DNA of 51,260 nt from Anaeromyxobacter soli (GTDB taxonomy: Bacteria > Myxococcota > Myxococcia > Myxococcales > Anaeromyxobacteraceae): contig NZ_JAKZLF010000036.1 of assembly GCF_022808855.1 (NCBI RefSeq), positions 1 through 51,260 on the forward strand, written 5' to 3'. The notes beneath the pieces are model-generated. The model was not told the origin of the DNA. It saw only the letters and a program-made list of their open reading frames with translations, and did not search any database. Position numbers and translations under genes: made by a program. Position 1 is the first letter of the stretch, and the number at the start of each line of letters is the position of its first letter. Positions 941 through 5,082 of this stretch are shown here, piece after piece.

Positions 941-2398
941 TCAGTACATCGCGGCGCGCGCGCCCGCGCCGGCGAGGAGCGCGCGCAGCCCCTCCGCGGC
1001 GTCGCTCCCCTCGAAGGCGAATCCGCCCGGCGCCTGGCGGAGCGACTCCGGCACCGCCGCCTCGGATGGCCCGCAGACGACCACGGGGAGGCGGAGCACG
1101 TTCGCGAGCTCGGCGAGGAGCGGCGCGTCGTCGTCGGCGGGGAGCAGGACGAGCGCGCCGACGGCGCCCGCCGCGAAGGGCCGCCAGAGCGGCCGCTGCG
1201 CGCGCTCGCCGGGGAGCTCGGTCAGGTCGAGGCGTACGCCCTCGCCGAGCGTGACGCGCCCGAGCGTGCCGAAGCCGGCGGGGGCCTCGACCTCCGCGTG
1301 GAAGCCGGGGACGGTCTGGAAGCGCTGGAGCGCCGCGCGGCGCGCGAGCGGGCCGCCGCCGGCGAGGACGACCTTGCCCACCGCCTGCGCGCCGGAGGAG
1401 CGGCCGCGCGCGATGCGCGCCCGCAGCGCGTGGAGCTCGGCCGGGCCGAGCAGCGGCGTGACCTCCGCGGGGGCCGGTCCGGCGAGGCGGCGCGCGTAGC
1501 CGCGCTCGAGGAGCGCGACGAGCGCGCGGACGGTCTCGAGGTCGGAGGCGCGGCAGCGGTCCACCACGTCCTGGAAGCGGCGCGGCCCGGCGAGGAGCGC
1601 GACCACCTCCTCGGTGACCGGGTGCAGGCCGGCGGGGATCTCGCTCGGGTGGACGGCGAGCTCGACGAGATCGCCGGGCGGCGGGAGCGCCGGCAGGAGC
1701 CGCGCGAGCTCGTCGGCCTGGCGCAGCCCCTCGAGGACCAGCTCCTCGACGCGCCGGTCGATCCGCTGCGGCCCGGCGAGCGCGCCCGGCACGAACGCGA
1801 ACTGCCCCTCGCGCCGGGTGAGGAGCCGCCACAGCGCCTTCTCGCCCACCGCCGCGCCCATCGCGGCGTCCACGACGCGCCCATCGGAGAGCGCGATCTC
1901 GGCGCGCTCTCCCTCGCGCTCCACGGTGAGCCGGCCGGTCTTGCGGTTCCCGGCGAGGATCTGGAGGAGGTCGGCGATGGGGATCTGCGCGAGGTTCCCC
2001 TCGATCTCGCGGGTCTCGCCGGAGACCGCGCGGGCGGCGTCGACGCGGCGGAAGATCTGCTCGATGCGGGCGAGGACCTCGTCGAGGTTGAACGGCTTGC
2101 GCAGGAACGTGCCGAGGCGCGCGCGCTCCGGATCGACGTTCTCGCCGGTGAGGACGACGGGGATCCGCTCGGTGCGCGGGTTCGTGCGGAGGATGCGCAC
2201 GAAGGTACGCGGGTCGAGGAGCCCCGCGCGCTCGTCGAGGAGGACGAGGTCGGGGAAGCGGAGGATCGCGATCTGCAGCGCCCGCGAGGCGTCGCGGGCG
2301 GCGTGGACCTGGTAGCCGCGCTGGCGCAGCGCCGGGGCGAGGGCGCGCACCGTCGCGGCGTCGGGGTCTGCGATGAGGATCTTGCGACCGGGGGCCAT
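941..2398 (-). CDS. Response regulator: receiver + PATAN (DUF4388) + GTPase-like domain
   Basis: 485 residues. Residues 1-118 form a CheY-like receiver with acceptor Asp55 and Lys101 (FLRKPF). Residues about 130-215 match a PATAN/DUF4388 module (GNLAQIPIADLLQILAGNRK, then LSDGRVVDAAMG). From about 339 to 480 there is a Ras-like GTPase-shaped segment. KVVLAGGGPLARRA stands where the P-loop should be, but the GxxxxGK[ST] lysine is absent. ELPGE at 394-398 resembles the switch II DxxG, and no NKxD is seen. It probably transmits a phosphorylation signal by protein contacts rather than DNA binding. It starts 9 bases after the receiver/GGDEF gene, so the two are likely co-transcribed. Confidence 0.8.
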   Translation of the reverse strand: MAPGRKILIADPDAATVRALAPALRQRGYQVHAARDASRALQIAILRFPDLVLLDERAGLLDPRTFVRILRTNPRTERIPVVLTGENVDPERARLGTFLRKPFNLDEVLARIEQIFRRVDAARAVSGETREIEGNLAQIPIADLLQILAGNRKTGRLTVEREGERAEIALSDGRVVDAAMGAAVGEKALWRLLTRREGQFAFVPGALAGPQRIDRRVEELVLEGLRQADELARLLPALPPPGDLVELAVHPSEIPAGLHPVTEEVVALLAGPRRFQDVVDRCRASDLETVRALVALLERGYARRLAGPAPAEVTPLLGPAELHALRARIARGRSSGAQAVGKVVLAGGGPLARRAALQRFQTVPGFHAEVEAPAGFGTLGRVTLGEGVRLDLTELPGERAQRPLWRPFAAGAVGALVLLPADDDAPLLAELANVLRLPVVVCGPSEAAVPESLRQAPGGFAFEGSDAAEGLRALLAGAGARAAMY

Positions 2399-2407
2399 CT
2401 CGCCTCG

Positions 2408-4276
2408 CTAGAGGGGCTGCAGGTCGTAGAGGTGCTGGAGCTTCGCGACGAGCGCGTCCACGAGCGGCGCGTCGGAGGTGTGGAACACCCGGCCCCCGGG
2501 GCCGGCGAGGAGCGCGTAGGCGGAGTGCTCGGAGAGGAAGAGCACGAAGGCGTGATCGGCGAAGCGCTTGTCGCCGTCGAGGTAGACCTCGGTGACGAGC
2601 GGGTGCACGACCGGCGCCGCGTCGCGGCCGCGGGGGCCGAGCAGGTACACCCGCGCGGACGGATCCCCGGCGCGCGCGGCGGCGTCGCCGGGCGGGAGCG
2701 CCTGCACGAGCGCCGCGAGCCCGCGCCCGCCCTGCCCGCCGACGTACAGCATCCCCCGCGCCCGCGGGTCGCGCGCGATCTCGCGGGCGGCCTCGCGCTG
2801 GGCGGCGGCGAGAAGGTCGCCCTCGACGCGCGCCCGCGCGGAGGGCGAGCTCTCCGGGATGGGGCCCGCGCCGGAGAGCAGCAGGTCCGAGAGCTCCCAG
2901 AACGCGGCCGGGTCGAGGTCGTCGAGGTGCAGGCGGCGGACGAGCGAGCCGCGCTGCTCCAGGATGCGCCCGCGCGCCCAGTGGAGCAGCTCGTCGAAGT
3001 CCTCCCCGTCCTTCGGGAACGTCGCGGCGCCCATGGAGAGGAGCACCGGGCAGCGCTCCTCGACGCGCTGGATCGCGTCCTCGCGCCGGACCTCCTCGAC
3101 CGCGCGGCGCAGGAACATGAGCGCGCCGAAGTGGTCGGTCTCGGGGAGGAGCACGTAGTACTCGCTCTCCGAGACCTTCGCGAGGATGTCGGCGTCCCGT
3201 CCCACGCGCGCCACCGCCGCGACGAGGTCGCGCACCGCGCGGCGGTACGGCTCGCGCCCCGCCTCCTTCCGCATCTGCTCGGCGTTGTCGAGGGAGAGGA
3301 CCACGAGCGAGAAGGACCGCGCGTAGCGGCGGGCCTTGTAGAACTCCTTGCCCGCGTAGTCCACGAAGTAGGCGAGGTTGTAGGCGCCGGTCTCGCGGTC
3401 GCGCAGGCCCACCCGCTCCACCGCCTGGAAGCGACGCGCGTTCTTCACCGCGATGGCGGTGAAGTCGGCGATGGTCGCGGCGGCCTGGTGCTCCTCGGCG
3501 CCGAAGGGGCCGGCGGCGCGATCGGAGAGGAGCGCCACGCCGACCGGCTCGTCGTCCGCGACGAGCGGCACGAGCATGGCCTCGCCCGCGCCGGCGAAGG
3601 GCGCCTCGAACGGCGCGCCGCCGCGCAGCGGCTCCGCCCACTCGGCGCCGGCGGGGTCGATCCGCGCCGGCAGCGCCGCGCGATCCACCACGCCGCGGTA
3701 GGCGCGGAGCAGGAGCTCGCCGCGCTCGCCGGCGGTCCAGAGCGCCGCGCCCTGCGCGTCGGTGACGCGTGCGAGCACGGAGAGCGCCAGGTCCTGGAGC
3801 CGCTCGCCGTCGAGCGTCGAGAGGATCTGCAGCCCCTGCCGGTAGAGCGCCTGGGCGCGGGTGAGGTCGAGGTTCTCGGAGACGAGCTGCGAGTGCTCGC
3901 GCCGGAGCTGCACGCGGCCGAGCGCGCGCTCCGCGACGGCGACGAGCTCCTCGGGCTCGACCGGCTTCGTGAGGAAGTCCGCGCAGCCGGCCTTCATGGC
4001 CTCGACCGCCATCCGCACGTCCTCGCGCCCGGTCACCGCCACCGCCTCGAGCTCGGGGTCGCGCCGCTTCGCCTCGCGCACGAGGGCGACGCCGTCCATG
4101 CCCGGCATGACGATGTCGGTGACCACGAGCTCGAAGCGCTCCTCGGCGAGGAGCGCCAGCGCCTCCTCGGCGGAGGAGGCCGTGCGCGTGGCGTGCCCGG
4201 CGTTCGCGAGCGCGCGGCCGAACAGCTCGAGGAAGAGCCGCTCGTCGTCGACGACGAGGATCCTGCCGGTCGCCAT
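2408..4276 (-). CDS. Response regulator: receiver + GAF + degenerate GGDEF + unknown C-terminal domain
   Basis: 622 residues from the ATG at 4276, two bases after the dapF stop. Residues 1-120 are a receiver (acceptor Asp54 in VTDIVMPGMDG, Lys104). A coiled linker and a GAF-like domain fill about 125-285. A GGDEF fold fills about 290-460. The signature GGDEF is replaced by SESEY (369-373), so diguanylate cyclase activity is unlikely. The inhibitory-site RxxD is kept as RDAD at 360-363 with the usual five-residue spacing, which suggests a c-di-GMP receptor. Residues about 470-622 form an additional domain I do not recognise. The frame stays open far upstream across dapF, but similarity to receivers starts exactly at this ATG. 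Confidence 0.85.
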   Translation of the reverse strand: MATGRILVVDDERLFLELFGRALANAGHATRTASSAEEALALLAEERFELVVTDIVMPGMDGVALVREAKRRDPELEAVAVTGREDVRMAVEAMKAGCADFLTKPVEPEELVAVAERALGRVQLRREHSQLVSENLDLTRAQALYRQGLQILSTLDGERLQDLALSVLARVTDAQGAALWTAGERGELLLRAYRGVVDRAALPARIDPAGAEWAEPLRGGAPFEAPFAGAGEAMLVPLVADDEPVGVALLSDRAAGPFGAEEHQAAATIADFTAIAVKNARRFQAVERVGLRDRETGAYNLAYFVDYAGKEFYKARRYARSFSLVVLSLDNAEQMRKEAGREPYRRAVRDLVAAVARVGRDADILAKVSESEYYVLLPETDHFGALMFLRRAVEEVRREDAIQRVEERCPVLLSMGAATFPKDGEDFDELLHWARGRILEQRGSLVRRLHLDDLDPAAFWELSDLLLSGAGPIPESSPSARARVEGDLLAAAQREAAREIARDPRARGMLYVGGQGGRGLAALVQALPPGDAAARAGDPSARVYLLGPRGRDAAPVVHPLVTEVYLDGDKRFADHAFVLFLSEHSAYALLAGPGGRVFHTSDAPLVDALVAKLQHLYDLQPL

Positions 4277-4278
4277 CC

Positions 4279-5082
4279 CTAGAGGTCCGCCTCGCCGGCG
4301 AACACCCGCGCGGCCGGGCCGCGCATCGTCACGCGCGTGAGGTCCTCGCCGACGGTGATCTCGAGGGTGCCGCCCGGGAGCCGCACCTCCACCGGGGTCC
4401 GGACCGGCGCCGCGCCCGCGCGCACCGCGGCCACCGCCGCGGCGCAGGCGCCCGTCCCGCACGCGTCGGTGAGCCCCGCCCCCCGCTCCCACACCACGAG
4501 GTCGATCCCGCCCCCGTGGCCCGGCCGCGCGAAGCCGACGTTCACGCCGCCCGCCACGGCCCGCTCGATCGCGGGCCCGATGGCGGCCGCGCGCTCGCGG
4601 GTGGGGACGTCGAAGAGGACGGCGTGCGGGTTCCCCATCGAGACGCGCGCGGCGCGGAGGGTCTCGCCCTCCACCCGGAACTCCTCGTCCCCGAGGACCC
4701 GCGCCGGCCCCATCTCGACCGAGACGCTGGACGGGACGCCGGCCGCGTCGCGGTGCACGGCGCAGCGCTTCGGGCCGGAGTCGGTGTCGATGACCAGCTC
4801 GCCCGAGAGGCCGCGCGTCTCGGCGAGGTGCCGGGCGACGCAGCGGATCCCGTTCCCGCACATGGCCGCCACCGAGCCGTCGGAGTTGAAGATGTGCATC
4901 GTGGCGGCGGCGCCGGGCGTCCGGGGAGGCAGGACGGTCAAGACGCCGTCGGCGCCGATGCCGCGGCGCCGGTCGCAGAGGCGCCGGGCGCGGTCGGGGT
5001 CCATCAGGGGCCCGTCCACGACGATGAAGTCGTTCCCGAGCCCGTGGTACTTCACGAAGGAGAGCGGCACGAGGCGCATCAT
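4279..5082 (-). CDS. dapF: Diaminopimelate epimerase
   Basis: 267 residues, typical of DapF, which interconverts LL- and meso-diaminopimelate in the cytoplasm for lysine and peptidoglycan synthesis. The N-terminal motif KYHGLGNDFIVVDG and the two active-site cysteine loops, MCGNGIRC and ACGTGACAA, are present. Two consecutive ATG codons (5082, 5079) can serve as start. It heads a leftward operon with two response regulators and a phzF-like gene. It is divergent from hutF, with 28 bases between the start codons, so their promoters must overlap or lie further inside the genes. Confidence 0.97.
   Translation of the reverse strand: MMRLVPLSFVKYHGLGNDFIVVDGPLMDPDRARRLCDRRRGIGADGVLTVLPPRTPGAAATMHIFNSDGSVAAMCGNGIRCVARHLAETRGLSGELVIDTDSGPKRCAVHRDAAGVPSSVSVEMGPARVLGDEEFRVEGETLRAARVSMGNPHAVLFDVPTRERAAAIGPAIERAVAGGVNVGFARPGHGGGIDLVVWERGAGLTDACGTGACAAAVAAVRAGAAPVRTPVEVRLPGGTLEITVGEDLTRVTMRGPAARVFAGEADL

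Follow-up and report, generated by a model that had tools for sequence, protein, structure and literature searches.

A degenerate GGDEF protein with a conserved I-site and a putative DICT-like C-terminal domain, encoded next to a predicted pseudo-GTPase in Myxococcota

If a GGDEF domain has lost its active-site signature and kept its inhibitory site, does the protein read c-di-GMP, and what do the domains around it contribute? The question was raised by a gene in a window of 51,260 nucleotides (the whole stretch of DNA analysed here; Anaeromyxobacter soli, RefSeq assembly GCF_022808855.1, contig NZ_JAKZLF010000036.1, positions 1 to 51,260). The original prediction for its product was a phosphorylation-gated c-di-GMP receptor with a C-terminal part of about 150 residues that could not be named. 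The reading frame runs from 4276 down to 2408 on the minus strand and encodes 622 residues plus a stop; the product was called RGD (REC-GAF-degenerate GGDEF-DICT-like protein; translation and domain scan). All features given below lie on the minus strand. The first gene of the apparent operon is dapF, for diaminopimelate epimerase (4279..5082; Pfam DAP_epimerase, 158 bits); RGD starts two bases past the dapF stop, and a short distance behind it, on the same strand, lies a gene for a protein of 485 residues (941..2398), referred to here as the partner. Above the cut-off, Pfam recognised in RGD only a receiver (residues 6-114, 3935..4261; Response_reg, 98.6 bits), a GAF domain (residues 164-279, 3440..3787; GAF_3, 30.8 bits, cut-off 27) and a GGDEF domain (PF00990, residues 292-435, 2972..3403; 42.2 bits, cut-off 23.8); the scan gave no histidine kinase domain and no domain past residue 435. 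The remainder is treated below as the C-terminal domain (CTD; residues 438-622, 2411..2965).

The translation bore out the predicted motifs: the active site (A-site) of the GGDEF domain reads SESEY (residues 369-373, 3158..3172) and the inhibitory site (I-site) RDAD (residues 360-363, 3188..3199), at the canonical spacing of five residues. I-site receptors of the SgmT and PopA type combine a degenerate A-site with an RxxD that precedes it by five residues, and the RGD sequence has this arrangement. The Arg equivalent to that of the secondary I-site was located at R391 (3104..3106) by alignment to 5euh; we take it to be the counterpart of R390 in PleD (PleD numbering).

These positions were scored in 94 distinct homologues, after removal of the window itself, chance hits and duplicates (L001-L006, L016 and L019) and with identical cores counted once. 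The metal-binding Asp was found in none of the 94 and was replaced by Ser in 71 (S328 in RGD); the guanine-binding Asn was changed to R or K in 91. GG[DE]EF was absent from all 94, the first two A-site positions were never GG, the second was always D or E, and the third was acidic in nine. The I-site Arg was retained in 93/94 homologues (the single exception, L052, has SDID in place of RxxD), the I-site Asp in 94/94 and the secondary Arg in 90/94; four further divergent members, beyond the 94, also retain RxxD. Since relatives were found across Myxococcota and the dead A-site with kept I-site recurs in 94 distinct sequences, the pattern is neither chance nor a sequencing error, and by sequence comparison the loss of the signature in RGD is real. 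The prediction of a degenerate GGDEF domain with an intact I-site is thereby placed on a firmer footing than a single sequence could give. Judged by these residues, the cyclase activity of RGD has almost certainly been lost.

Binding of c-di-GMP by RGD is likely from the same comparison. In the same genome, RxxD is also present in 8/9 GGDEF domains with an intact A-site, so RGD probably inherited the motif, and the argument for use of the I-site comes only from the fact that RxxD was retained as the catalytic residues changed. A second, weak and partial GGDEF match was recorded in the window's genome (L188, G000:C1:63743-63997), and no GGDEF-like signature was located in it.

The lost catalytic positions of RGD, residues 328, 336 and 370 (3292-3294, 3268-3270 and 3167-3169), correspond to conserved Ser, Arg/Lys and Asp/Glu, respectively. 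Conserved replacements of this kind (S in 71/94, R/K in 91/94 and D/E in 94/94) hint at a pocket re-used for a new task. As signs of a re-tasked site they would also suit a domain that binds no nucleotide and offers only a dimerisation or docking surface. In that case RxxD would have been retained for folding or for contact with proteins, and input would come from the GAF and DICT-like domains. The GGDEF domain of TmoK from M. xanthus, which according to the accessible text of PMC4877007 neither makes nor binds c-di-GMP, would be a precedent, and alignment gaps show the GGDEF domain eroding in two divergent members of the family (L175 and L177). RxxD still aligns in both of these members, however, and their CTD and partner gene persist; in the family at large, the three I-site residues were kept together while the catalytic ones were lost. 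We therefore regard a nucleotide-free GGDEF domain as rather unlikely and retain the I-site receptor as the preferred reading.

With full-length RGD as the query, matches at E 1e-40 were found in 131 of 195 Myxococcota genomes, and with the CTD profile in 132 of the 195; relatives with names belong to Anaeromyxobacter, Myxococcus, Corallococcus, Archangium, Hyalangium and related metagenome bins. A search for the C-terminal domain elsewhere, proposed with the original prediction, thus returned a domain widespread in the phylum and present once per genome, except in G049, where the gene is divided between two contigs. A second CTD copy in the window's own genome was ruled out, as one strong match only was obtained there. 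Because of one match per genome across 132 genomes, RGD is considered, on sequence grounds, an orthologous single-copy family and not a stray degenerate copy. A record titled Comamonas sp. KCTC 72670 (L086) contains this operon of myxobacteria and scores the same as L021 (group g33); it is probably mislabelled.

The M. xanthus orthologue is probably MXAN_5053, an assignment made from length and domain type: the RGD-family gene of M. xanthus AM003 encodes 616 residues, and MXAN_5053 is listed with 617 residues in a strain table and counted among c-di-GMP-type proteins (PMC4877007). MXAN_5053 was deleted in that study, which reports, in the text accessible, that development was free of defects in 20/24 single mutants and that three genes were important for type IV pilus-dependent motility; the same text names MXAN_5053 among neither the developmental nor the motility mutants (PMC4877007). 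No mention of MXAN_5051, MXAN_5052 or MXAN_5054 was found in the open-access literature searched. MXAN_5053 has a receiver and belongs to a group of eight M. xanthus receivers in which two or more of the five primary specificity residues are those of DifD, as given in the accessible part of PMC4671073.

The receiver of RGD itself has D10/D11, D54 and K104. Among 65 scored members (three without a scorable upstream region were excluded) 48 carried an intact receiver, 14 had none and 3 had a degenerate one. Of these three, L053 is probably a mis-scored absence, the alignment having overrun into dapF. At least four receiver changes were forced by well-supported tree branches, and in members without a receiver the rest of RGD and the partner gene persist. 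Alignment A6 comprised 52 of 54 prepared rows, L122 and L128 being excluded. Because 14/65 members lack the domain and the tree demands four changes or more, receiver input is best described, from the sequences, as optional within the family. The phosphorylation gating of the original prediction is consequently confined: it may apply to the window protein, in which the key residues are present, and it does not extend to the family. In its full form this reading has an unlinked histidine kinase phosphorylating D54 and so controlling c-di-GMP binding or output. The intact residues here, the retention of the receiver in most scored members and the DifD-like specificity residues of MXAN_5053 (PMC4671073) would suit it; the lineages that lost or degraded the receiver and kept the remaining protein and its partner do not. 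It is compatible with the I-site receptor for the window protein, and we hold it as possible but tentative.

The C-terminal part was then the larger question. Pfam was silent after residue 435, and the unassigned C-terminus comprises about 183 residues (about 440-622) rather than 150; a cut at 470-622 would remove conserved N-terminal helices of the domain. Nor is it any longer nameless, being DICT-like with a predicted PLD fold on the evidence that follows. In sequence searches with the CTD, Pfam gave four chance-level families and the PDB three weak chains. Structure prediction, also proposed with the original prediction and carried out here on residues 438-622, gave a confident AlphaFold2 model (pLDDT 85.4, pTM 0.86; 53 sequences, from which the truncated L132, L134, L136 and L151 and rows over 97% identical were excluded). 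Foldseek alone gave no significant match to this model (best E 5e-3), dihydrodipicolinate reductases and CdaA being among the matches listed. Realignment of the Foldseek candidates with VIA-align produced a coherent list of PLD-fold proteins with Z of about 8 to 9.5: NucT (Z 9.5, 124 residues, rmsd 3.1, 9% identity), TrmB 2f5t (Z 9.3, 119 residues, rmsd 2.8, 8% identity), TrmBL2 (Z 9.1), polyphosphate kinase 1 (PPK1; Z 8.9), FAM83B (DUF1669; Z 8.1, 121 residues, rmsd 3.1, 13% identity), and Zucchini and phospholipases D (Z about 8). Because the note supplied with the tool gives 7 to 8 as the typical best Z of models without a clear match, it is the coherence of the list, and not the Z scores, that lends support.

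As nucleases are included among the closest folds, the CTD could be imagined as a working enzyme of the phospholipase D type, activated by c-di-GMP. The motif HxK(x4)D was found in 0/68 and 0/64 distinct sequences (two overlapping sets), and two proteins of the same fold list, TrmB and FAM83B, are binding modules and not catalytic. An active enzyme was rejected for the missing HKD motif and is highly improbable. The CTD is thus best taken, on the model, as a real domain with a predicted PLD-like fold lacking the HKD motif.

The DICT domain, by its name, is a sensory domain of diguanylate cyclases and two-component systems. In profile-profile comparison (hhalign), the CTD (alignment A3) matched haloarchaeal DICT (PF10069) at 80.5% probability over 80 C-terminal columns, and the broader alignment A1 (38/68 rows) matched at 79.9% over 133 columns; the single-comparison E was about 1e-5, and an F-x-T-x-D ending is common to both families. 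The DICT alignment (A5) consisted of ten haloarchaeal plasmid sequences and L153, the partial L163 being excluded; the ten came from 11 of 23 DICT-bearing plasmid records, fetched by match. All 11 DICT sequences used were recognised by PF10069. TrmB matches were also found on haloarchaeal plasmids. As controls, five other domains of RGD and the partner scored 0.1-1.0%, the last domain of the partner 0.6% and the reversed profile 0.2%; 100 column shuffles reached a maximum of 3.1%. The best of 100 block shuffles, in which local motifs were kept, reached 50%, with a score below that of the real comparison, so the kinship comes largely from one stretch near the C-terminus.

PF10069 itself gave no match in hmmscan against 38 CTD members up to E 10, nor in 58 Myxococcota genomes at E 0.01, and no DICT structure was named among the Foldseek and VIA-align matches listed. 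As the Pfam model is silent on the CTD, the label used is DICT-like and not DICT member; a distant relationship of the CTD to DICT is nonetheless quite probable from the profile comparison. An association of DICT with enzymes of c-di-GMP is on record in Microcystis, where it occurs with an HD-GYP phosphodiesterase, according to the accessible part of PMC7063779.

The domain scan of the partner gave a receiver-like domain and DUF4388 (PATAN; residues 133-231, 1706..2002; PF14332, 83.6 bits), and Pfam had no name for the C-terminal domain (residues 318-485, 944..1447). The AlphaFold2 model of these last 168 residues (pLDDT 87.1) showed a small-GTPase fold, with a best Foldseek E of 5.6e-6 at probability 1.00. 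VIA-align gave Z 10.5 against Arf2 (129 residues, rmsd 2.6) and Z 10.3 against M. xanthus MglA (145 residues, rmsd 3.6). The corresponding profile (A4, 38/40 rows; the truncated L015 and L048 excluded) matched Arf1 at E 0.05; with a single exception, the 27 weak matches listed were Arf-family chains. The P-loop and NKxD were each found in 0/82 distinct partner sequences, and the domain is accordingly a pseudo-GTPase by sequence; the model gives it a predicted Ras-superfamily (Arf/MglA-like) fold.

In four lineages (L048, L050, L051 and L052) Tyr occupies the position in the partner's receiver-like domain where the phospho-acceptor Asp is expected, so phosphorylation of the partner would not be universal. 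PATAN response regulators of cyanobacteria have been linked to type IV pilus control, and PixE is thought to bind PilB1, according to the accessible part of PMC7690835. No paper on DUF4388 in Myxococcus was found in the open-access literature searched.

The two genes are closely linked. The partner was the next gene downstream, on the same strand, in 67/67 and 70/70 loci with enough room (two overlapping sets), and dapF lay upstream in 58/63 and 68/70; the loci scored as dapF misses include L142 and L053, the latter most likely an alignment overrun into dapF. By hand count, the 195 Myxococcota genomes, which share ancestry and are not independent observations, divide into 128 with the CTD and the partner, 4 with the CTD alone, 3 with the partner alone and 60 with neither. 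In three of the genomes with the CTD alone (G050, G187 and G194) the partner is cut by the contig end at the loci examined, and in the fourth (G071) the CTD match lies at a contig edge. Two genera of the window's own family (g2 and g4) are without both genes. An ORF-based listing of the neighbourhood at five loci was set aside as too noisy in GC-rich DNA.

The reading that we favour, with moderate confidence, is that RGD is a c-di-GMP receptor with a catalytically dead GGDEF domain and a DICT-like output or sensor domain, working as one unit with its pseudo-GTPase partner. c-di-GMP would bind the I-site through R360 and D363, while R391 would come from another copy, so that the ligand would probably bridge two GGDEF domains. 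Jointly with input through the GAF domain, and with phosphorylation in members that have a receiver, binding would rearrange the C-terminal domain, which may serve as a non-catalytic, PLD-fold, DICT-like module for a ligand or a protein. The signal would then pass, presumably by physical contact, to the receiver-PATAN-pseudo-GTPase protein, which may act on its target by binding rather than by GTP hydrolysis. A bolder and quite unlikely extension is that the pair is a phylum-wide unit of Myxococcota in which the dead cyclase reads c-di-GMP and sets a pseudo-GTPase, and that this pseudo-GTPase either replaces MglA or a different small GTPase at the effectors of that GTPase, or competes with it there, or else has a PATAN target, for example a pilus motor; c-di-GMP would in that case reach polarity or pilus control without a GTP cycle of its own.

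Degenerate GGDEF receptors are already known. What is added here is a component of the c-di-GMP network that occurs in single copy in 132/195 Myxococcota genomes and is tied almost one-to-one to a pseudo-GTPase protein, the unusual domain of either half being without a Pfam name. If the pair works as proposed, it would represent a new kind of c-di-GMP output.

Polarity and motility in M. xanthus are run by the small GTPase MglA. The partner resembles MglA and Arf small GTPases in predicted fold and differs from them in lacking the P-loop and NKxD and in being fused to a receiver-like domain and PATAN. Like PopA of Caulobacter (named in the accessible part of PMC3509222) and other REC-GGDEF receptors, RGD is a response regulator with a degenerate A-site and an intact I-site; unlike these, it adds a GAF domain and a DICT-like C-terminus, and its receiver is missing in several lineages. 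The nearest proven myxobacterial case of a degenerate GGDEF domain that binds c-di-GMP through the I-site is SgmT of M. xanthus, in which, according to the same text, the I-site is intact and the R763A substitution abolishes binding (PMC3509222). SgmT and RGD have in common GAF and GGDEF domains, a degenerate A-site (GGGVF in SgmT) and an intact I-site (RHPD in SgmT). SgmT, however, is a hybrid histidine kinase with a C-terminal GGDEF domain (PMC3509222), whereas RGD is without a kinase, has its GGDEF domain internally and also carries a DICT-like domain, and its gene is linked to that of the partner.
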